A stretch of 32,168 nt of DNA from Bacteroidales bacterium (GTDB taxonomy: Bacteria > Bacteroidota > Bacteroidia > Bacteroidales > Muribaculaceae). Below, piece by piece: positions 103 to 9,722 of the stretch. The translations under genes were made by a program, and so were the position numbers. Each line of letters begins with the position of its first letter. Position 1 is the stretch's first letter. The notes under the pieces are model-generated. The model was not told where the DNA came from and did no database searches. It worked only from the letters and a program-made list of their open reading frames with translations. Where the stretch lies: assembly GCA_014800785.1 (NCBI GenBank), contig JAAVFK010000018.1, positions 57,602 through 89,769 of the forward strand, in the 5' to 3' direction.

Positions 103-1125
103 TTATCTGACGATGATCGTTGTTCCACGGGCTCCGCGTTTGAGCGCGCGGCCTTCGGAGAGGGCGGGAAGTCCGCGGAGGTCTATGGCGCGGGGGGCGA
201 GGTCGTCGGCGGTCGGGAGGGAGAGGCCCGACTCCGGGAGCGGTGCGTCGGGATGGAGGTCTTCGGCACCGGCGACTTCGGTCGAGCTTTCGCCGAGCCA
301 GCCGAGAGTCTGGCGAACGCCGGTCTGGACCTTGATGAAGTCGATGTGGGTCAGTGCCACGGGACGGCCTTCGGCGTCGACGGCGTGACTGATATCGAAA
401 CCTTCGGGGTCGGTCAGGGGCTTGTTGTCGGCATAGCCCCAGTCATAAAAATAGGTGATGTAGTTGGTGCCTTTGCCGTTTGAGTCGACACCGTTGTCGG
501 GGAGACGGGTGACGTTCTCGAAGGTGATTGACTCGGCGTCGATCCACTCGGGCCAGTAGTTCTGTGAGTGTTCGCGGTTTTTCTCGAGCCAGCCCGAGGT
601 ACCGTCGGAACATTCCCAGGCGATGTATTCGGCGTCTACGAGATAGGATTTCTTGGAATCGGTCACGGGCTGATGGTCGGCCGAGGGACGGAAGTAGGTG
701 ATTGTAAGATGGCGCGAGGCATTTTCGGCTTCGGAGCCTTCGAGTTCGAACCATTCGTCGTCGGGGAGGCCGTTGCCGTTGGTGTCCTGGGACACCCATA
801 CGACTCCGGGTTCGGCCGAGCCGAGATGCTGAGCTTCGTTGGTCATCACGGCGTTGCCGTAGACGCGGAAGTCGGCTTCGCCGACGACATTGACGACGGG
901 GTGGTCGAATCCGAAGACGACGTAGCCGCCGAAGGCGCCGAGCGAGATGAGGCCGGGACGGGCATCGCCGACGAGCTGTTCGGCCGCGGCGTCGACGGGC
1001 GACAACGGCGCGACGACTTCGGGCACATCGTTCAGGAACTGGCCCGGAGCGGGACAAAATTCATAGACCCGGGCAATATAAGGAGAATGAGCAGCCAACA
1101 AAGCCGCCATCAAAATCGTATTCAT
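103..1125 (-). CDS. Conserved Bacteroidales cell-surface protein, possibly part of a corrinoid-uptake locus
   Basis: The 340-residue protein has a short hydrophobic N-terminus (residues 1-13) followed by SPYIARVYEFCPAPGQF, then ISLGAFGGYVVFGFDHPVVN (about 60-79) and a D114-rich stretch DTNGNGLPDDEW (114-126) that looks like a calcium-binding loop. From memory, Bacteroides proteins of this type, annotated only as 'cell surface protein', lie in vitamin B12 transport loci next to BtuB/BtuG genes; a BtuB-like receptor lies elsewhere in this window at 28551-30608. Molecular function is unknown. The C-terminus (ALKRGARGTTIIVR) vaguely resembles a degenerate sorting tail. A TAACTTTG box ends only 5 nt before the ATG, so the mRNA may be leaderless or translation may begin at M6. 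High GC and codon use match the core genome. Confidence 0.75.
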   Translation of the reverse strand: MNTILMAALLAAHSPYIARVYEFCPAPGQFLNDVPEVVAPLSPVDAAAEQLVGDARPGLISLGAFGGYVVFGFDHPVVNVVGEADFRVYGNAVMTNEAQHLGSAEPGVVWVSQDTNGNGLPDDEWFELEGSEAENASRHLTITYFRPSADHQPVTDSKKSYLVDAEYIAWECSDGTSGWLEKNREHSQNYWPEWIDAESITFENVTRLPDNGVDSNGKGTNYITYFYDWGYADNKPLTDPEGFDISHAVDAEGRPVALTHIDFIKVQTGVRQTLGWLGESSTEVAGAEDLHPDAPLPESGLSLPTADDLAPRAIDLRGLPALSEGRALKRGARGTTIIVR

Positions 1126-1130
1126 GCCCG

Positions 1131-1138
1131 CAAAGTTA
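1131..1138 (-). promoter_or_regulatory. -7 promoter box of the cell-surface protein gene
   Basis: Minus-strand TAACTTTG matches the Bacteroidetes TAnnTTTG element exactly. It lies 5 nt upstream of the ATG at 1125, which would put the transcription start at or next to the start codon. No clear TTTG was identified at the -33 spacing. Confidence 0.55.
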
Positions 1139-1202
1139 ACGAAAATTTCGAGTAGGATTATTAGAAATTTTTGTTAATTTCGTATCTTAATATCAGAATC
1201 AG

Positions 1203-2126
1203 ATGGAAGAAAACAATAATATAACTTTGAATCCATTATCCGGGAATAATAATTCTGGACTAATGCCTGTTGAAAATCTCATTCATATCATAAGAGGGCA
1301 ACAAGTCATGATTGACAGTGATTTGGCGCGGTTATATGGGGTAGAGACAAAGCGATTAAATGAGCAAGTAAAACGCAATATCGACCGCTTCCCGGAAGAT
1401 TTTATGTTCCAACTCACCAAAAGTGAATCTGAAGATTCAAGGTCGCAAATTGCGACCTTGAAGCAGGGGCACAATATAAAATATCAGCCTTATGCCTTTA
1501 CTGAGAATGGAATTGCCATGTTGAGTAGTGTACTACGATCTAAGAGTGCAATTGAGGTAAATATAAGGATAATGCGAGCTTTTACTGCGATGCGTAGTTT
1601 TCTGATGAGTAATGCGCACATATTCCAGAGACTTGAAACTGTAGAACACAATTATTTACTCGTTAATCGCCATCTCTCTGAACATGACAGGAAGTTTGAG
1701 GAAATACTATCTCGTCTTGATGACAAGGAAGCCGAACCAATCGAAGGTTTCTTCTATGAAGGACAAATATTTGATGCATATACTCTGATCTCAGATTTAG
1801 TCAGGAAGGCTGATGCTCGTATTATCCTCATAGACAATTATGTTGACGATCGGGTTCTGAAAACACTTGATAAACGTAAGGATGGTGTTTCGGCTACAGT
1901 ATTCACTAATCCGCGTAATTCACAAATCAATCTTGATATTAGAAGACATAATGCCCAATATCCGGCTATCAACCTCCGGCATTGCACTAACGTCCATGAC
2001 AGATTCCTGATAATTGACGATACTGTCTATTTTATCGGCGGATCTATCAAAGACCTCGGGAAAAAGATAGTTGCCTTCAGCCAAATGCATCAGTCCCCGG
2101 ATGATATTCTATCCAAAATCAGGTGA
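1203..2126 (+). CDS. ORF6N-domain protein with C-terminal PLD-like domain
   Basis: The 307-residue protein has an ORF6N-type DNA-binding domain at about residues 22-110 (LIHIIRGQQVMIDSDLARLY, RFPEDFMFQL, YAFTENGIAMLSSVL), the domain found in phage antirepressor-like and chromosomal regulators. Residues 135-175 look helical or coiled-coil. Residues 185-295 resemble a phospholipase-D-like half with H265-DRFLIID and G279-GSIKDLGKK; the HxK position reads H-D-R, so catalysis is doubtful. The gene is clearly AT-richer than the genes at both sides and is convergent with the ATPase/nuclease pair, consistent with an acquired patch. It likely binds DNA; a regulatory or defence role is inference. Alternative start: M21. 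Confidence 0.85.
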   Translation: MEENNNITLNPLSGNNNSGLMPVENLIHIIRGQQVMIDSDLARLYGVETKRLNEQVKRNIDRFPEDFMFQLTKSESEDSRSQIATLKQGHNIKYQPYAFTENGIAMLSSVLRSKSAIEVNIRIMRAFTAMRSFLMSNAHIFQRLETVEHNYLLVNRHLSEHDRKFEEILSRLDDKEAEPIEGFFYEGQIFDAYTLISDLVRKADARIILIDNYVDDRVLKTLDKRKDGVSATVFTNPRNSQINLDIRRHNAQYPAINLRHCTNVHDRFLIIDDTVYFIGGSIKDLGKKIVAFSQMHQSPDDILSKIR

Positions 2127-2241
2127 TAGTTCGACACTATTGTCAAACTCGGGAATTAAACGAAATTTTCGATAACCCGCACCCACCCGCCCATTATCTG
2201 ACATCAGCAAAACCGCATATCTCGCGCGTCCCGCCCAGCTA

Positions 2242-2256
2242 TCAAGGAATCCTTGA
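2242..2256. repeat. Short perfect palindrome in convergent intergenic gap
   Basis: TCAAGGA and TCCTTGA are separated by one base. It sits between the convergent ORF6N gene and the nuclease-like gene (gap 2127-2367). No T-tract follows, so it is not a clear terminator. The rest of this gap is AT-rich and shows no gene. Confidence 0.3.
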
Positions 2257-2367
2257 CAACTGCTTCTGATGGTAATAAATATAAGACCAAATATTATAAC
2301 CTTGATGTCATCATATCCGTTGGGTATAGAGTAGGGAGGTCGTCCGAGGATGGAACAGCGTGAGCAA

Positions 2368-2871
2368 TTAAAGGTTTATGGGGAGGTCGGGTTGGTTGTT
2401 CTTCAGGATGCGGAGTTCAATGTTGTATTGTTGCTTGAAGCGGACACGGGCTTCTTCAACCTTAATTTTCGAACTGCTTTTCGGGCCACATCCGGCTGTC
2501 ACGATTCTGGCCCGGGTCTTGTCTTGCGCAGACGGATACGGTTTGAATAATTTATTCTTTACAGTCGCCTCAAGCTGTTCTATCGCATGCTCTATATCTT
2601 TCCCCTTAAGTTCGAGGAATACAGCTATGCCTCTATCACCATTAGGGACAGGCTGATCGGAAACCAATAATAATTTGTCACACTTAAATCCATCCTTTAT
2701 GATATAATCGTCAATCTGAAACACAGCGGAGACAGAAGAGCCGGAAATATTTACCCTATAGGATTTCCCGTTCTCGGACACACGGACCGATGTCCGTTCC
2801 TGCCATGGCTGAGCAGCCCGGAATCCTTTTTCTTTAAGCCTGTTGACGAGCAGGAGAGCAAAATCAGCCAT
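2368..2871 (-). CDS. Small PD-(D/E)XK-like nuclease candidate, partner of the upstream ATPase
   Basis: I do not recognise a named family. The 167-residue protein shows the layout of a PD-(D/E)XK nuclease core: strands leading to C64-D65-KLLLV, then AVFLELKG with E87-x-K89, then a helix with Q99-L (HAIEQLEAT), as in RecB-like and related nucleases. D65, E87, K89 and Q99 would be the active-site set. This is pattern recognition, not a database match. The gene overlaps the end of the ATPase gene by 8 nt, so the two are translationally coupled and probably form a complex. The pairing (ATPase first, small nuclease second) resembles Septu-like defence modules in organisation, but Septu uses an HNH nuclease. 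AT-rich relative to flanks. Confidence 0.75.
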   Translation of the reverse strand: MADFALLLVNRLKEKGFRAAQPWQERTSVRVSENGKSYRVNISGSSVSAVFQIDDYIIKDGFKCDKLLLVSDQPVPNGDRGIAVFLELKGKDIEHAIEQLEATVKNKLFKPYPSAQDKTRARIVTAGCGPKSSSKIKVEEARVRFKQQYNIELRILKNNQPDLPINL

Positions 2872-4051
2872 AGATAATGTCGTTGAGGGCCAGTATCAGA
2901 TTCTCATACTCATCGGAAGTGGAATCAAGATAGGTTCCGTCAATCATGTGAAGTTCGGTATCAAGCAATTGTGAGCATTTTCCGTCCGCCACACTCCATG
3001 CACCTACCATTGACGAATCCAGTTCGGGAATATCAAGATTCAAATTATCGTATACTTCGGGAGATTTCCGACGGGCCTTATGGGCAAGCATCATGATATT
3101 AAGAGCCGTCAATATGTACGGACTGTGAGTAGCCATAGTCAGATCCATCACAGCCTTGTCAGCCTTCAGACATTCTCCTACAAGATAACGCATCAGTCCC
3201 CATTGATTGGACGGAAAGAGACTAAGTTCCGGTTCTTCGAGGTGCAGACTTATCCTGCGATATGGGAAACTTCCGATATTGAGGCTTGTGGAGAATTTCG
3301 AAAGATTATCCCCTGCGGCCAAGAAGCGTATAATGGAGGAGTTCATCGCATCCACTATATTATAGTAGCGGGAGAAGTAAGCGGCGATCAGATGTAGCGC
3401 GACGCTACTCTGCATTCCGGAGGAAGCACTCGTAAGAGGGAGATTATCGAATCCCGAATTGTGGCCCGAACGTTCCGAACTAACTATCACTCTTCGTCCG
3501 GCAGTAGTCTTTCTCACCGACATCTTCACACCGAGGTACTTCATTTCCTCAACGGATATCACCTCAATCGCTTTCTGATAATTAAGGAATGTCTCGTCCA
3601 GATAGAACATATTGTGACGCAACGTCACATTTCCGGCAGCCAAATCAGGGATAAGCACCCTTTTGTCGGAGATATACCCTATCTTTTGCAATGTAAGCTG
3701 AGCTTCCTCGACCATCTTCTGCGGAAAACTGAGATGATTTCCTTTCATGCAGATGAGGAAAGAACCATAGGTGTAGACAATTTCCGAATCATGACGTACA
3801 AAATGTTTCAGGCCATTATCGGAAAGTATGGAGTCCGAGCGAAACCGGAAAGGAGTGGGAATACCGGAATTCTTAAAATAAGAACGCACACAACACATCT
3901 TATAAATCCATCTCATCATGGCAAGCACCTTCATGATAGTACTTTTCCCACTTCCGGACTCACCTATAAAAACGTTGAAGCGCTTTATATCGGACAAAAC
4001 CACTTCTTCTATGGGTCCTAACCGACGAATTACGAGGCTTTCTTGCAACAT
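2864..4051 (-). CDS. SMC/OLD-like AAA (ABC-type) ATPase
   Basis: The 395-residue protein has Walker A G30-ESGSGKST (30-38), an ABC-signature-like segment SASSGMQS (208-215), Walker B RISLHLEEPELSLFP with catalytic glutamate E272/E273, and an H-loop-like ATHSPYIL (H309). No transmembrane segments and no TOPRIM motif are seen, so it is not a complete OLD/GajA nuclease. Such soluble ATPases (AAA_15/AAA_21-type) act as sensors or motors in many prophage-defence systems such as PARIS, Septu and Gabija. Here it is the first gene of a two-gene operon with the nuclease-like protein, starting 20 nt after the hairpin that follows tRNA-Ser. No good -7 box was found between hairpin and ATG; transcription may come from the tRNA promoter. 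Confidence 0.85.
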   Translation of the reverse strand: MLQESLVIRRLGPIEEVVLSDIKRFNVFIGESGSGKSTIMKVLAMMRWIYKMCCVRSYFKNSGIPTPFRFRSDSILSDNGLKHFVRHDSEIVYTYGSFLICMKGNHLSFPQKMVEEAQLTLQKIGYISDKRVLIPDLAAGNVTLRHNMFYLDETFLNYQKAIEVISVEEMKYLGVKMSVRKTTAGRRVIVSSERSGHNSGFDNLPLTSASSGMQSSVALHLIAAYFSRYYNIVDAMNSSIIRFLAAGDNLSKFSTSLNIGSFPYRRISLHLEEPELSLFPSNQWGLMRYLVGECLKADKAVMDLTMATHSPYILTALNIMMLAHKARRKSPEVYDNLNLDIPELDSSMVGAWSVADGKCSQLLDTELHMIDGTYLDSTSDEYENLILALNDIIYG

Positions 4052-4071
4052 AACAGAACGAGGGGATATGA

Positions 4072-4100
4072 TTAACCCCGCCGAGTGTCAGCGGGGTTAA
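4072..4100 (-). terminator. Hairpin after tRNA-Ser (terminator or attenuator)
   Basis: Perfect 10-bp stem TTAACCCCGC / GCGGGGTTAA with a 9-nt loop (4082-4090). It lies 14 nt beyond the encoded CCA end of tRNA-Ser and 20 nt before the ATPase ATG. No long T-tract follows on the minus strand, so termination may be partial. Confidence 0.6.
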
Positions 4101-4114
4101 ATAGATTGATGTTA

Positions 4115-4202
<88 letters not shown>

Positions 4203-4230
4203 TTATAGCGGGTTGGTGGGTTTTGCGGTG

Positions 4231-4262
4231 CAAAGTTACATCTTTTTTCTGTTTCCACCAAA
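4231..4262 (-). promoter_or_regulatory. Promoter of tRNA-Ser
   Basis: On the minus strand a TTTG at 4262-4259 is followed after 20 nt by TAACTTTG at 4238-4231, matching the Bacteroidetes sigma-ABfr consensus in both boxes and spacing. The tRNA 5' end is 28 nt downstream. Confidence 0.8.
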
Positions 4263-4352
4263 TTTTAGACGATTTTTTTGATGCGCACCCCCATTTTTCT
4301 ACTTTGGCTGTGGTTTACGCGCTTTTGATGATGTTTTTTCGCCTCTTTTTAC

Positions 4353-4360
4353 TAATTTTG
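4353..4360 (+). promoter_or_regulatory. -7 promoter box of the GlsB-like gene
   Basis: TAATTTTG matches TAnnTTTG. It implies a leader of about 75-80 nt before the ATG at 4446, and makes the upstream GTG at 4374 less attractive as the start. The -33 TTTG is not at ideal spacing. The promoter is divergent from that of tRNA-Ser. Confidence 0.55.
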
Positions 4361-4445
4361 CAGATTATGGGCAGTGAACGCTTTTCGAAATGGCCTGCAG
4401 GCTGTAGAGGGGGTTCGTCCGTGCCCGTGTACAGTAACCAGTATC

Positions 4446-5393
4446 ATGGAAGAAGTCATCGAGAAAGTTGATCGCCGGGCGATCGAGGCCGAACTTACGC
4501 CGGAGCGCTTTCTGCGCCCGACCAATAAGGCCGGAAACGAAATCTATGTAGTCGACGCCGTGTCGGCCCCGAATGTGATGCGCGAAATCGGACGCCTGAG
4601 AGAACTGGCGTTCCGCGATGCCGGGGGCGGAACGGGGAAGGCCCTGGATATCGATGAGTTCGACACGATGGATCCTCCGTGCCGTCAGCTGATCGTCTGG
4701 GATCCGGAGGCGAAGGAGATCGTCGGCGGATACCGCTTCATTCTCGGCGAGGAGATCCGGCTGGAGAACGGAGTGCCGCGCATCGCGACATCCCACCTCT
4801 TCAATTTCTCGGACAAGTTCATCAAGGAAATCCTGCCCGAGACCCTTGAGCTGGGCCGCTCGTTCGTATCGCCGAAGTATCAGAGCGCGACCGCGGGCCG
4901 CAAGGCCCTTTACGCTCTCGACAATCTCTGGGACGGACTCGGGGCGCTGACGGTCATCTATCCGAGTATCAAGTATCTGTTCGGCAAGGTGACGATGTAT
5001 CCCAATTACGGCACCCGTTCGCGCGACCTCGTCTTGGGATTCCTCCACAAGTATTTCCACGATCCTGATGACCTCGTGACGCCGATCAAGGCCCTGCCTA
5101 CCGCGGCGCTCTCGCCCGAGATTCAGGGCAATTTCACCGGATCGTCGTTCAAGGAGGACTACAAGATCCTGAACGCGGCGATCCGTGCAGACGGGCGCAA
5201 CATCCCGCCGCTGGTCAACGCCTATATGAACCTCTCGCCGACGATGCGTATGTTCGGAACGGCTATCAACGACGAATTCGGAGATGTCGAGGAGAGCGGA
5301 ATCCTGCTTAAGATCTCCGAAATCTTCGAGGAGAAGAAGGAGCGCCATATCGGCACCTTCACGATCCGGAAAGTAGAGGGAGAGAAGAACTGA
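4446..5393 (+). CDS. glsB: GNAT-fold N-acyltransferase, GlsB-type (glycine/amino-acid lipid synthesis)
   Basis: The 315-residue protein has the GNAT acyltransferase layout known from GlsB/OlsB-type enzymes: PNVMREIGRLRELAFRDAGG, DEFDTMDPPCRQLIVWDPEAKEIVGGYRF and ELGRSFVSPKYQ. In Bacteroides GlsB makes the mono-acylated amino acid (glycine-lipid precursor) from an acyl carrier; GlsA adds the second chain. No GlsA-like gene is in the window. I chose the ATG at 4446 because homologs recalled from Bacteroides begin near MEE and because an in-frame GTG extension at 4374 has no family-like sequence. It stands 119 nt before the nonulosonate genes on the same strand; a LegH-type sugar N-acetyltransferase is a less likely alternative since the motifs fit lipid acyltransferases. 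Confidence 0.8.
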   Translation: MEEVIEKVDRRAIEAELTPERFLRPTNKAGNEIYVVDAVSAPNVMREIGRLRELAFRDAGGGTGKALDIDEFDTMDPPCRQLIVWDPEAKEIVGGYRFILGEEIRLENGVPRIATSHLFNFSDKFIKEILPETLELGRSFVSPKYQSATAGRKALYALDNLWDGLGALTVIYPSIKYLFGKVTMYPNYGTRSRDLVLGFLHKYFHDPDDLVTPIKALPTAALSPEIQGNFTGSSFKEDYKILNAAIRADGRNIPPLVNAYMNLSPTMRMFGTAINDEFGDVEESGILLKISEIFEEKKERHIGTFTIRKVEGEKN

Positions 5394-5512
5394 AAACGCA
5401 GGCGTTGCGAACCTTATGGTGCGCGGCGCGGTTTTGAATTCCGGGGGGAGGCAGAGAAACCTTTTAGTTTTTAGTATTGAATGGTTTCTGAAACAAACGA
5501 CATTTTTTACAG

Positions 5513-6490
5513 ATGAAGAAAATAGTGGTCACCGGGGCCGACGGGTTCATCGGCTCGCACCTGACCGAGGCGCTGCTCGCCGAGGGATATGAGGTGAAGG
5601 CTCTGGCGCAATACAATTCGTTCAACAACTGGGGACACCTCGAGGGACTCCGCCACGAGAATCTGGAGGTGGTCACGGGCGACGTACGCGACGCGGCTTT
5701 CTGCCGTCACCTTCTGAAAGGGGCCGACACGGTCATGCACCTCGCGGCGCTGATAGCGATTCCATACAGCTACGTCGCTCCCGAGAGCTATGTGGACACC
5801 AACGTGAAGGGGACGCTCAACATCTGTCAGGCCGCGCTCGATCTCGGTCTGGAGCGGGTGTTGGTCACCAGCACGTCCGAGGTCTACGGGACAGCGCAGT
5901 ATGTGCCGATCGACGAGAAGCATCCGCGCCAGCCGCAGTCGCCCTACTCGGCATCGAAGATCGGCGCCGACGCGATCGCCAAGAGTTTCCACAATGCCTT
6001 CGGGCTCCCGCTGACGATAGTCAGGCCGTTCAACACCTACGGCCCGCGCCAGTCGGCCCGCGCGTTTATCCCGACAGTGATCACCCAGATAGCCAACGGC
6101 GCGCGCCAGATCAAGGTCGGCGACCTCTCCCCCACGCGCGACTTCAACTTCGTCACCGACACGGCGGCCGGTTTCATAGCCATAGCCAAATCTGACGAGG
6201 CTGTGGGCCGCGAGCTGAACATCGCGACCGGCACGGAGGTGTCGATGCGCGATACGCTGGAGACGGTGGCCCGGGTGATGGGCGCCGAGGTCGAATTCAC
6301 CGTTGACCCCGAACGCCTCCGCCCCTCGAAGAGCGAGGTCTTCCGTCTCTGCGGCGACAGCACGGAGCTCAGACGTCTGACCGGCTGGGCACCGAAGGTC
6401 ACCCTCGAGGAGGGACTGCGCCGCACGGCCGAATGGTTTCTCAACGACGACCATCTGAAACAATACAAGTCCGATATCTATAACCGATGA
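5513..6490 (+). CDS. legB: NAD-dependent sugar 4,6-dehydratase/epimerase (LegB-like)
   Basis: A 325-residue short-chain dehydrogenase fold: NAD-binding T7-GADGFIG (7-14), STSEVYG, YSASK (YxxxK catalytic pair) and RPFNTYGPRQ. The S-T-S-E arrangement is typical of nucleotide-sugar 4,6-dehydratases such as LegB, which makes the 4-keto-6-deoxy intermediate of legionaminic acid. The following genes (ATP-grasp, NeuB, NeuC, NeuA types) support a nonulosonate role. Its stop overlaps the next ATG by 4 nt (ATGA), so it leads an operon. A weak -7-like TAGTATTG at 5472-5479 is the only promoter candidate. Exact substrate (UDP- or GDP-GlcNAc, or another sugar) cannot be told from sequence. Confidence 0.8.
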   Translation: MKKIVVTGADGFIGSHLTEALLAEGYEVKALAQYNSFNNWGHLEGLRHENLEVVTGDVRDAAFCRHLLKGADTVMHLAALIAIPYSYVAPESYVDTNVKGTLNICQAALDLGLERVLVTSTSEVYGTAQYVPIDEKHPRQPQSPYSASKIGADAIAKSFHNAFGLPLTIVRPFNTYGPRQSARAFIPTVITQIANGARQIKVGDLSPTRDFNFVTDTAAGFIAIAKSDEAVGRELNIATGTEVSMRDTLETVARVMGAEVEFTVDPERLRPSKSEVFRLCGDSTELRRLTGWAPKVTLEEGLRRTAEWFLNDDHLKQYKSDIYNR

Positions 6491-7437
6491 ACAAGAATAA
6501 AATCACGATTCTTATGCTCGGCGGCGCGCGGCGCGTGTCGATGGCCGAGCTTCTCAAGCGCAGCGGCGAACGTATAGGCCGTGAAGTGGAGATCATCAGC
6601 TATGAACTGCTCGAACAGGTTCCCATCGCCATCGCGGGGCGTGTGATTGTCGGACTCCGGTGGAGCGACCCGAAGGTGGTCGACGACATCGTCCGCGTCT
6701 GCGGTGAGAACGACGTCAACATCATCCTGCCGTTCGTGGACGGCGCGATCGAGATCGCGGCCAAATGTAAGGAGGCGCTCCCCGACGTATTCGTGCCCGT
6801 CGGCGACTTCGAGACGAGCCGGATCATGTTTGACAAGATCGAGGCCGCCAAGGCCTTCGGCGAGGCGGGGCTTCCGATCCCTGCGACATACCGCGCGATC
6901 AACGCCGAGATGCCGGCCATCGCGAAGCCGCGCCACGGTTCGGCCTCGCGCGGAATCCACATCTTCCACAATATCGACGACCTTATGCACCTGCCCAACC
7001 TGCAGGACTATATCGTACAGGAATATATCGAGAACCGCGAGGAGTATACGGTCGACTGTTACGTCACACAGAAGGGCGAGATACTGACGGTCGTTCCCCG
7101 CGCACGCCTCGAAGTGATGGGTGGGGAGGTAACGCGTACCATCACCTGCCGTAACGCGACGCTCGACCGCATGAGCCGCGAGGTGATCACGAAATTCGGC
7201 CTCCTCGGCCCTGTGACGCTTCAGTTCCTCCACGATCTCGACACGGACCGCTATCTGCTGATGGAGGTCAATCCGAGACTCGGCGGCGGCGTGATCTGCT
7301 CGATATACGCCGGCGCACCGATAGCGGACTATATCATCGACGAGTCGCGCGGAATCCCCCTGAAGCCGTGTGACGACTGGGCCTACAACACTTTGATGGC
7401 CCGATATCAGAAAGAAGCTATTTTCTACGAAGGATAA
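6487..7437 (+). CDS. ATP-grasp enzyme in nonulosonate cluster
   Basis: The 316-residue protein resembles carbamoyl-phosphate-synthase-like ATP-grasp proteins: an N-terminal Rossmann-like lobe (ITILMLGGARRVSMAELL), the glycine-rich loop KPRHGSASRGI (near residues 148-158), QEYIENREEYTVDC, and the metal-binding LMEVNPRLGGG. ATP-grasp enzymes join a carboxylate to an amine or thiol through an acyl-phosphate. The partner substrate is unknown. It is translationally coupled to legB by a 4-nt overlap and is followed after 56 nt by the NeuB gene, so it probably modifies the sugar, its precursor, or attaches an amino-acid group. This slot is where LegC aminotransferase would often be found, but no PLP motif is present. 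Confidence 0.8.
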   Translation: MNKNKITILMLGGARRVSMAELLKRSGERIGREVEIISYELLEQVPIAIAGRVIVGLRWSDPKVVDDIVRVCGENDVNIILPFVDGAIEIAAKCKEALPDVFVPVGDFETSRIMFDKIEAAKAFGEAGLPIPATYRAINAEMPAIAKPRHGSASRGIHIFHNIDDLMHLPNLQDYIVQEYIENREEYTVDCYVTQKGEILTVVPRARLEVMGGEVTRTITCRNATLDRMSREVITKFGLLGPVTLQFLHDLDTDRYLLMEVNPRLGGGVICSIYAGAPIADYIIDESRGIPLKPCDDWAYNTLMARYQKEAIFYEG

Positions 7438-7493
7438 CGCGGGATAACGCGCGTACGCGTGCGGATCCCCGAACAAGAGATACAGAAATAAGT

Positions 7494-8579
7494 ATGAGCG
7501 CTATAATAATCGCCGAAGCAGGAGTGAACCACAACGGGCGGATCGATCTGGCCCGGCGGATGGTTCATGCGGCCAAAGAGGCCGGGGCGGACTACGTCAA
7601 GTTCCAGACGGCCGTTCCGGAACTCGTAATCTCCGAAATCGCCCCTCAGGCGGAATATCAGAAGGAGAACACGGGACGCGTCGAGTCACAGCTCGATATG
7701 TGCCGTCGGATTCATCTGCCCCTCTCGGCCTACGCTGAGCTGAAGGCGCTCTGCGAGGAGGTCGGGATTGGATTTATGTCCACCCCCTTCGACCCCGTCT
7801 CGGTCGACACCCTCGCGGCTCTCGGCCAGGACTGGTTCAAGATCCCTTCGGGCGAGATCACCAATCTCCCCTATCTCCGCCAGGTGGCCTCGAAAGGAAT
7901 CCCGGTGATTCTCTCGACCGGAATGTCTACCCTCGACGAGGTCGAGGATGCCGTCAAAATTCTGACCGGAAGCCATCCGGACTACCCCTCGGAGAGCCGA
8001 CTGACACGCGACGACATAATCGTGCTCCACTGCACGACGCAGTATCCGGCACCTTTCGGTGAGGTGAACCTGAAGGCGATGAAGACAATGGCCGATCGTC
8101 TCGGGGTCCGCACCGGTTATTCGGACCACACGCCCGGAACGGAAGTGGCCGTGGCGGCTGCCGCACTCGGCGCTGCCGTTATCGAGAAGCACTTCACTCT
8201 CTCGCGCCAGCTCGAAGGGCCCGACCACAAGGCGTCGCTCGAACCGCTGGAACTGGCCGATATGATCCGCCAGATCCGCAGCGTCGAGTCTGCTCTCGGC
8301 GACGGCGTCAAGCGCGTCGCGCCGAGCGAGGAGCCCAATATCGAGGTTGCACGCAAGAGCATCGTGGCAGCCCGCGCGATCAGGAAAGGGGAGACGCTTG
8401 ACGAGTCGAACTTAGCTGTCAAGCGTCCCGGGAACGGGCTCTCCCCTATGAAATGGGACTCCGTCTGCGGCACCCGCGCCCTCCGCGACTATGAAGCGGA
8501 CTCTCTGATCGATCCGGCGCAGGCCGAAACTGGATCTGATGATCACCATTCCACACCCTCCACTCACGAAAAACTATAA
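7494..8579 (+). CDS. neuB: Nonulosonate (sialic/legionaminic) acid synthase, NeuB/LegI family
   Basis: The 361-residue protein condenses phosphoenolpyruvate with a six-carbon N-acetylated sugar. The N-terminal TIM-barrel shows IIIAEAGVNHNG (4-15), ADYVKFQT, DWFKIPSGEITNLPYL, ILSTGMST, LHCTTQYP and GYSDHTPG, all hallmarks of the NeuB family; the C-terminal SAF (antifreeze-like) domain begins near RKSIVAARAIRKGETL. The SGEITN variant is shared by LegI- and NeuB-type enzymes, so sialic versus legionaminic product is not decided. The last ~20 residues (GSDDHHSTPSTHEKL) look like a poorly conserved tail. It is 3 nt from the NeuC-like gene. Confidence 0.9.
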   Translation: MSAIIIAEAGVNHNGRIDLARRMVHAAKEAGADYVKFQTAVPELVISEIAPQAEYQKENTGRVESQLDMCRRIHLPLSAYAELKALCEEVGIGFMSTPFDPVSVDTLAALGQDWFKIPSGEITNLPYLRQVASKGIPVILSTGMSTLDEVEDAVKILTGSHPDYPSESRLTRDDIIVLHCTTQYPAPFGEVNLKAMKTMADRLGVRTGYSDHTPGTEVAVAAAALGAAVIEKHFTLSRQLEGPDHKASLEPLELADMIRQIRSVESALGDGVKRVAPSEEPNIEVARKSIVAARAIRKGETLDESNLAVKRPGNGLSPMKWDSVCGTRALRDYEADSLIDPAQAETGSDDHHSTPSTHEKL

Positions 8580-8582
8580 ATT

Positions 8583-9722
8583 ATGATAGCAGTAGCCACT
8601 ACGACACGAGCCGACTGGGGACTTCTTCTCCCCCTGCTCCGCGAGCTCCGCGAACGCGGACATGAACCTGCGGTGATCGCAGCCAACATGCACCTCCTCC
8701 CGGAATACGGCAACACTATTGACGAAATACGCGCCTCGGGCTTCGAACCCGTGGCGAAGGTCCCGGCCAAGAGCGACCCGGCCCGCACGCTCTCGACCAC
8801 CATCGAAGGCTTCACCGACGTTCTGCGCAACCTGAAGCCCGACGCGCTCGTGCTTCTCGGCGACCGCTTCGAAACTCTCGGTGCAGCCTCGGCCGCACTC
8901 CTCGCGGGTGTGCCGATCGTTCACATCGCGGGCGGAACGATCTCGGAGGGGGCCATCGACGACTCGATCCGCCACGCGATCACCAAACTCTCGTCTCTCC
9001 ACCTCGTGGAGACCGAGCAGTGTCGCCACCGCGTGATCCAGATGGGCGAGGATCCTTCGACCGTCTTCACCGTCGGCGCCGCCGGCGTCTGGAACGCGCT
9101 CAACACGAAACTGATGACCCGCGAGGAGCTCGCAAAGAGCCTCGGATGGGTGATTCCGGAGAATTTCATTGTGGCTACGCTTCACCCCTGTACCCGCAGC
9201 GCCACACCCGCTCCGGAGCAGATGGAGAACTTCATCAAAGGCCTCGAACAGTCGCTCAAGGAGTTCCCGGGAATGGGCATCATCTTTACCTTCCCCAACA
9301 ACGACTCCGACCCGAAACCCCTGATTGAGCAGATCAAGGCTTTCGCCTCCCGCCATCCGGGTCAGGTGCTGGCGGTTCCCTCGCTGGGAATGCACCGCTA
9401 TCTGTCGGCTGTGGCTCTATCGAAGGGAGTCGTCGGCAACAGTTCAAGCGGCATCGTGGAGACCGCCTCTCTCGGCGTGCCGACCCTCAACGTCGGTGTT
9501 CGCCAGGAGGGTCGCGAGGCACCCCCGAGTGTACTCAACACTCCGGCCACTCCGCTCGGCGTCTCGATCGGCATCCAGAGCATGATGCGCCCTGTGACCC
9601 AGGAGCAGGCCCGTCTGAAGTTTAACCCATACTTCCGCCACGGAACCCCGAAGCTGATGGCGGATGCGATCCTGAAATTCGACTTCCACGCTTATCCGCG
9701 CAAGAAGTTCTATAACCTCTGA
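8583..9722 (+). CDS. neuC: UDP-sugar hydrolysing 2-epimerase, NeuC/LegG family
   Basis: A 379-residue GT-B-fold enzyme that hydrolyses and epimerises a UDP-N-acetyl sugar (UDP-GlcNAc to ManNAc for NeuC; the 2,4-diacetamido sugar for LegG). Motifs: TTTRADWGLLLPLL at the N-terminus, LVLLGDRFETL, IVHIAGGTISEGAIDDSIRHAITKLS, and the UDP-binding VVGNSSSGIVETASLGVPTLNVG. Full family length. Its stop shares a base with the ATG of the NeuA gene (TGATG), showing tight coupling. If the pathway is legionaminic this is LegG, which would need a 4-amino substrate made by enzymes not in this window. Confidence 0.9.
   Translation: MIAVATTTRADWGLLLPLLRELRERGHEPAVIAANMHLLPEYGNTIDEIRASGFEPVAKVPAKSDPARTLSTTIEGFTDVLRNLKPDALVLLGDRFETLGAASAALLAGVPIVHIAGGTISEGAIDDSIRHAITKLSSLHLVETEQCRHRVIQMGEDPSTVFTVGAAGVWNALNTKLMTREELAKSLGWVIPENFIVATLHPCTRSATPAPEQMENFIKGLEQSLKEFPGMGIIFTFPNNDSDPKPLIEQIKAFASRHPGQVLAVPSLGMHRYLSAVALSKGVVGNSSSGIVETASLGVPTLNVGVRQEGREAPPSVLNTPATPLGVSIGIQSMMRPVTQEQARLKFNPYFRHGTPKLMADAILKFDFHAYPRKKFYNL

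Follow-up and report, generated by a model that had tools for sequence, protein, structure and literature searches.

A probable PDC-M29-type gene pair of an OLD/PtuA-class ATPase and a small PD-(D/E)XK-like nuclease behind tRNA-Ser in a Muribaculaceae genome

The gene pair at the tRNA-Ser locus and its relatives

The DNA analyzed here (the window; 32,168 nt of contig JAAVFK010000018.1, positions 57,602 to 89,769, from a gut Bacteroidales bacterium of the Muribaculaceae) carries, on the minus strand, a tRNA-Ser(tga) gene (4115–4202), followed after 63 nt by a gene for a 395-residue ATPase (4051–2864) and a gene for a 167-residue protein (2871–2368), both with ATG starts. The open reading frames (ORFs) of the latter two share 8 nt (2864–2871), a spacing that recurs in relatives and likely couples the translation of the two genes. 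GC content is 0.40–0.45 across 1001–4000, compared with 0.62 and 0.54 in the flanking 1-kb steps. Promoter and terminator scans gave counts close to those of shuffled sequence. An initial annotation, made from the sequence alone, had described this locus as an SMC/OLD-like ATPase overlapping a nuclease with a D65...E87-x-K89...Q99 motif, lying behind tRNA-Ser (tRNA genes being frequent sites of AT-rich islands with anti-phage systems), and had proposed that the two form an undescribed, Septu-like defense system. The anatomy so described was borne out; the novelty was not (see below).

The first protein is an ATP-binding cassette (ABC) ATPase of the PtuA/OLD/AriA type with intact motifs. Pfam assigns it to AAA_21/AAA_15, and it contains what we take to be Walker A (G30...G35-K36-S37), the signature (S210-S211-G212), Walker B followed by E272-E273, and the H-loop (H309). 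Among 67 aligned rows (the window protein and 66 adjacent ATPases of 340–470 amino acids), G35, K36, G212, and E273 are kept in all, and S210, S211, E272, and H309 in 66. When searched against PADLOC, the window ATPase matched PDC-M29A (4.4e-31, residues 5–332, ending before the C-terminal end) as the sole family at ≤1e-10, the runner-up being AriA (2.3e-10). Across the 67 rows, PDC-M29A and AriA (best 5.1e-36) were each matched by 66 at 1e-10. The PtuA model was matched by 14, but with a best E value (2.2e-87) level with the best for PDC-M29A (6.9e-88), so that some relatives may be called Septu by PADLOC. For the window protein itself, the NCBIfam PtuA model, whose cut-off is 500 bits, scored 12.3. 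In fold searches, PtuA (from Septu and retrons) was the best solved fold, which agrees with the Septu likeness seen initially; the heads of Rad50 and SMC proteins were also similar, and AriA was among the closest solved or modeled ATPases. When the window ATPase by itself was compared by sequence with solved structures, the best value was 0.11.

By motif, predicted topology, and weak fold matches, the active site and layout of the small protein are PD-(D/E)XK-like. Across 14 rows (14 of the 16 small-protein sequences from genomes of the family, with L011 and L016 left out), E87, K89, and Q99 are invariant, and D65 is kept in 13. In a wider alignment of 76 rows (the window and 75 of 83 small genes, omitting those outside 125–200 amino acids, one duplicate, and L122), D54, D65, and Q99 occur in 75 rows each and C64 in all 76; E87 and K89 are no evidence in that alignment because its loci were retrieved with the peptide pattern ELKGxD[VI]xHA. 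The Pfam scan of the small protein returned no match. Alone, it matched PDC-M29B weakly (E 0.0033); at E ≤ 0.01 this family was matched by 9 of the 14 rows, and at E ≤ 1e-3 its two models were matched by 43 and 6 of the 76. Neither HNH nor TOPRIM/AriB families were among the small-protein matches in the Pfam, NCBIfam, and PADLOC scans, and the motif differs from that of AriB too. The AlphaFold2 model (predicted local distance difference test score 93.6) comprises strands at 66–71, 82–88, and 118–125 and a helix at 93–105, and places D65, E87/K89, and Q99 as expected for the core layout of PD-(D/E)XK enzymes. Matches of the model to solved structures were weak, and the nucleases among them were mostly DNA enzymes (XPF/Mus81, NucS/EndoMS, and Can2). 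A sequence search of solved structures with the nuclease returned nothing. Two relatives are longer, with an extra C-terminal part (310 amino acids in L068, 9992–10924, and 308 in L070, 9989–10915); in L068 a further, weakly ATPase-like ORF lies upstream.

ATPase and small protein form a conserved co-directional pair. The small protein was found in 16 of 297 genomes of the family, that of the window included, and among the 15 loci of relatives an ATPase gene precedes the small gene in 14. L013 is the exception: its small gene sits at a contig end, with an ATPase gene at the opposite end of the same contig (L036), which is probably circular. A scan of named genomes confirmed 147 loci, of which the best 80 were kept, and a scan of viral sequences added four. 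Among these 84 loci, 81 have the ATPase gene directly upstream on the same strand (80 by profile, L102 by inspection), and the remaining three (L065, L081, and L106) start 72–139 nt from a contig end. The spacing ranges from −104 to +59 nt, depending on the start codon chosen. The 80 genome loci represent six phyla (45 Bacteroidota, 15 Cyanobacteriota, 11 Bacillota, 4 Pseudomonadota, 1 Verrucomicrobiota, and 1 Spirochaetota, with 3 unplaced), and are partly non-independent, as L065 and L066 repeat one element. Because the gene pair is conserved to this extent, a chance arrangement is excluded. One phage record also carries a nuclease relative.

The tRNA-Ser site, broken nuclease copies, and plasmids

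A close ATPase (E ≤ 1e-90) is encoded in 8 of 111 genomes of the genus, including that of the window. In six of these (the window genome, G338, G336, G300, G269, and G213) the ATPase gene shares the strand of tRNA-Ser(tga) and starts ∼50–105 nt behind it; in the other two (G238 and G204) no tRNA-Ser(tga) lies ahead of it. In G338 and G336, nuclease residues 49–122, including D65, E87, and K89, are gone from behind a whole ATPase frame; their ATPase genes differ at 15 of 1176 nt, and the loss is probably a single event. In G300 just the first ∼43 nuclease residues are recognizable, again with the ATPase frame whole. The nuclease is thus broken and the ATPase intact in three of the eight loci, or three of the six at tRNA-Ser (L225, L226, and L231); the genomes concerned are draft assemblies, 66–85% complete.

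tRNA-Ser(tga) was located in 41 of 61 genus genomes drawn. Of the other 40 genomes with this tRNA, 24 gave at least 850 nt behind it (27 loci were scanned, three of them shorter; three pieces of 76–77 nt were excluded). In these 24, the ATPase follows the tRNA in 4 and a PDC-S05-like match in 8, one of which consists of 26 residues at a contig end. Among the matches listed, integrases lie within 1.5 kb in G265, G297, and G307, and in G302 a relaxase gene is found a few kb beyond the tRNA. The site is thus variable and takes up different elements. A search of the window for an attachment repeat found no further stretch of 12 nt or more that matches the 3′ end of tRNA-Ser.

Two plasmids among 72,556 plasmid records carry the pair. 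On CP061010 (typed MOBV; L259, 6621–7679), a resolvase gene (4.3e-45) directly follows it, with a Mob_Pre relaxase gene beyond. On a Bacteroides finegoldii plasmid (L258, 1–763 and 10893–12456), it lies within a long run of glycosyltransferase genes. In the same run, a gene for an ATP-binding protein overlaps by 8 nt another whose product weakly matches DUF4276 (7e-5, below the Pfam cut-off), possibly a second ATPase pair. A general association of the pair with capsule loci was considered and dropped, since glycosyltransferase-like neighbors, sought with queries from the B. finegoldii locus alone, occur in merely 4 of 57 loci (L050, L071, L088, and L109).

Outside the pair proper, and convergent with it, the window encodes an ORF6N protein (1203–2126, plus strand; Pfam ORF6N 8.5e-36) that belongs to the single-gene PADLOC candidate PDC-S05 (6.9e-117). 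Relatives of this protein found behind tRNA-Ser may instead begin with a RhuM-type portion (Virulence_RhuM 2.1e-20, L164) joined to a similar C-terminal half, so the DNA-binding front end of these proteins seems exchangeable. In G269 (L175, 4429–4911, minus strand), the RhuM-type PDC-S05 gene beside the pair is cut short, stopping near the point where its C-terminal half begins. A repeat search of 1100–4400 revealed short repeats only; a 16-nt inverted repeat (1135–1150 and 2161–2176, 94% complementary) brackets the ORF6N gene and is either a chance occurrence or marks the edges of an inserted piece. Past the tRNA, on the plus strand (4374–9722), lie a gene for a GNAT acyltransferase (Acetyltransf_5) and genes that, by eye, resemble a surface-glycan cluster for acidic sugars of the sialic-acid type.

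The ATPase tail and an alternative partner

In 12 loci (L025–L034, L039, and L040), an ATPase of the family precedes a different partner of 212–242 amino acids. In a tree of the ATPase core (residues 1–330), the window clade (7 rows) groups with 11 of these 12 ATPases (Shimodaira–Hasegawa-like approximate likelihood ratio test support of 100), L039 being placed elsewhere. In the nuclease tree, the window clade joins 15 other Bacteroidota pairs (support 99/97), to which its nucleases are 35% identical (median; range 26–46). By median identity, the core of the window clade is 36% (26–41) identical to the 11 and 23% (17–26) to the 15, whereas residues 331–395 show the reverse, 20% (10–30) to the 11 and 30% (21–43) to the 15, with ranges that overlap between partner types. 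Resolved in steps of 30 residues, the reversal is confined to 361–390 (19% vs 37%) and 391–395; residues 331–360 do not show it (19% and 17%), so the signal spans ∼35 residues. These values hint that the last ∼35 residues of the ATPase (∼361–395, encoded by 2864–2971 on the minus strand) vary with the type of partner, and this co-variation would make them a candidate docking tail that holds the nuclease. A chimeric origin of the window pair by recombination was considered and dropped: with three groups, the core and nuclease trees both fit one history, and co-variation alone is claimed.

The alternative partners are probably diverged relatives of the small nuclease. In profile comparisons, four subsets of them reached probabilities of 58–89% against the 76-row alignment and 1.5–77% against the 14-row one; when five were scanned, L034 hit PDC-M29B (1.7e-6) and four hit no family at 1e-3. 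All 12 have, by eye, S, T, N, or C at the position of the ExK lysine, which would mean either that the lysine is displaced or that activity is absent. Though this is less likely than not, the family may represent a sensor ATPase whose effector is exchangeable: the ATP-binding head would be retained, the last ∼35 residues would change in step with the partner, and the tail would act as a plug determining which effector, be it active, altered, or dead, is driven by the sensor.

Possible function and comparison with known systems

On balance, the pair is more likely than not a PDC-M29-type module of two genes in which an ATPase gates a nuclease. The gating is suggested by the anatomy of the pair and would be as in PARIS and Septu. 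Also counted in favor of this reading are the conserved pairing, the PDC-M29A matches, the patchy presence, plasmid carriage, and the integrases and relaxase behind tRNA-Ser; breakage of the nuclease beside a whole ATPase fits a costly effector. The ATPase would form an oligomer and restrain the nuclease via its C-terminal tail, until its ATP-driven state is altered, either by a product of the phage or by a structure arising during infection. The nuclease would then be released or activated and cut nucleic acid, and phage replication would stop, often along with the host cell; the outcome would thus probably be abortive infection. Weighing against this reading is the gene neighborhood. No PADLOC enrichment was visible in near vs far genes around 24 relatives, in the families listed. 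To be included, a locus needed 8.2 kb or more on each side; this gave 94 genes in the near set and 69 in the far set, which were matched to PADLOC at 1e-20. The tally is of families and not of proteins, with one member matched per family, and extends to the first 25 families in each set (of 38 near and 30 far). Among those listed, PADLOC matches were PD-Lambda-5 A and B, methyltransferases, and SoFic in the near set, and PDC-S05/S23 and PDC-M37B/DolB in the far set.

As to the substrate, DNA appears more likely, given the fold neighbors of the modeled nuclease. By analogy, tRNA is a live alternative, since the related AriAB and PtuAB cut tRNA: the same gating would release a nuclease that cuts host tRNA and shuts off translation, as AriB and PtuAB do according to excerpts of PMC12409363 and PMC13096335. 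AriA and PtuA are among the closest solved or modeled ATPases, which speaks for this alternative. However, AriB and PtuB are TOPRIM and HNH effectors, whereas the solved nuclease neighbors found here are mostly DNA enzymes, and the adjoining tRNA-Ser is an insertion site and no evidence of a target, so that we consider a tRNase rather doubtful. Still less probable is a toxin–antitoxin or maintenance role, in which the ATPase keeps a nuclease toxin in check and the pair is selected for the stability of islands and plasmids, not against phage. Carriage on plasmids and at a tRNA site, the lack of visible defense enrichment, and broken nucleases next to intact ATPases, as a keeper outliving its toxin would leave, are all in line with it, but the pair is a PADLOC defense candidate, its ATPase family is used in Septu, PARIS, and Gabija, and such a role overlaps with defense. 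A DNA repair or housekeeping pair is highly improbable: despite the Rad50- and SMC-like ATPase fold and the Mus81- and EndoMS-like nuclease, the distribution is patchy (16 of 297 family genomes for the small protein, 8 of 111 genus genomes for the close ATPase), nuclease copies are broken, GC content is low, and plasmids carry the pair.

The tail that seems to depend on the partner, and the partner family lacking the ExK lysine, offer a handle on how ATPases of the Septu and PARIS type select their nucleases and keep them in check. Loci in which the nuclease is broken but the ATPase is whole amount to natural experiments. Sequence, structure, and a distribution over six phyla now stand behind the PADLOC candidate PDC-M29.

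Among known systems, PDC-M29 is the closest: the window ATPase matches PDC-M29A, the nuclease family matches PDC-M29B, and the two genes are adjacent. The window pair is diverged, as seen from the marginal match of its nuclease and from the PDC-M29A match that stops short of the ATPase C terminus, and it is probably a genuine, diverged member of this catalogued kind. PDC names denote candidates from "guilt by embedding", as an excerpt of PMC12988326 has it; in the literature searched, neither the term PDC-M29 nor a test of this candidate was found. PMC12839542 describes, for 594 taxa, OLD-type ABC ATPases that lie close to BREX systems and are coupled to nucleases of the HNH, PD-(D/E)XK, or PIN class; it states that such couplings had been reported earlier (Krishnan 2020, its ref. 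52). Compared by description only, its PD-(D/E)XK pairs combine the same classes of ATPase and nuclease as the window pair; together with the PDC-M29A and PDC-M29B matches, they rule out an undescribed system, contrary to the initial annotation. In Septu and retron PtuAB, PtuB is an HNH nuclease, whereas in the window partner the motif is D...ExK and the layout resembles that of PD-(D/E)XK enzymes. Septu, as far as the excerpt of PMC13096335 goes, cuts tRNA-Tyr and requires both its ATPase and HNH motifs, mutants in either losing immunity. PARIS likewise consists of two genes and has an ATPase of the same class; in the part of PMC12409363 consulted, AriA keeps AriB, a TOPRIM tRNase, inactive until a phage protein trigger binds, whereas the partner in the window is PD-(D/E)XK-like.
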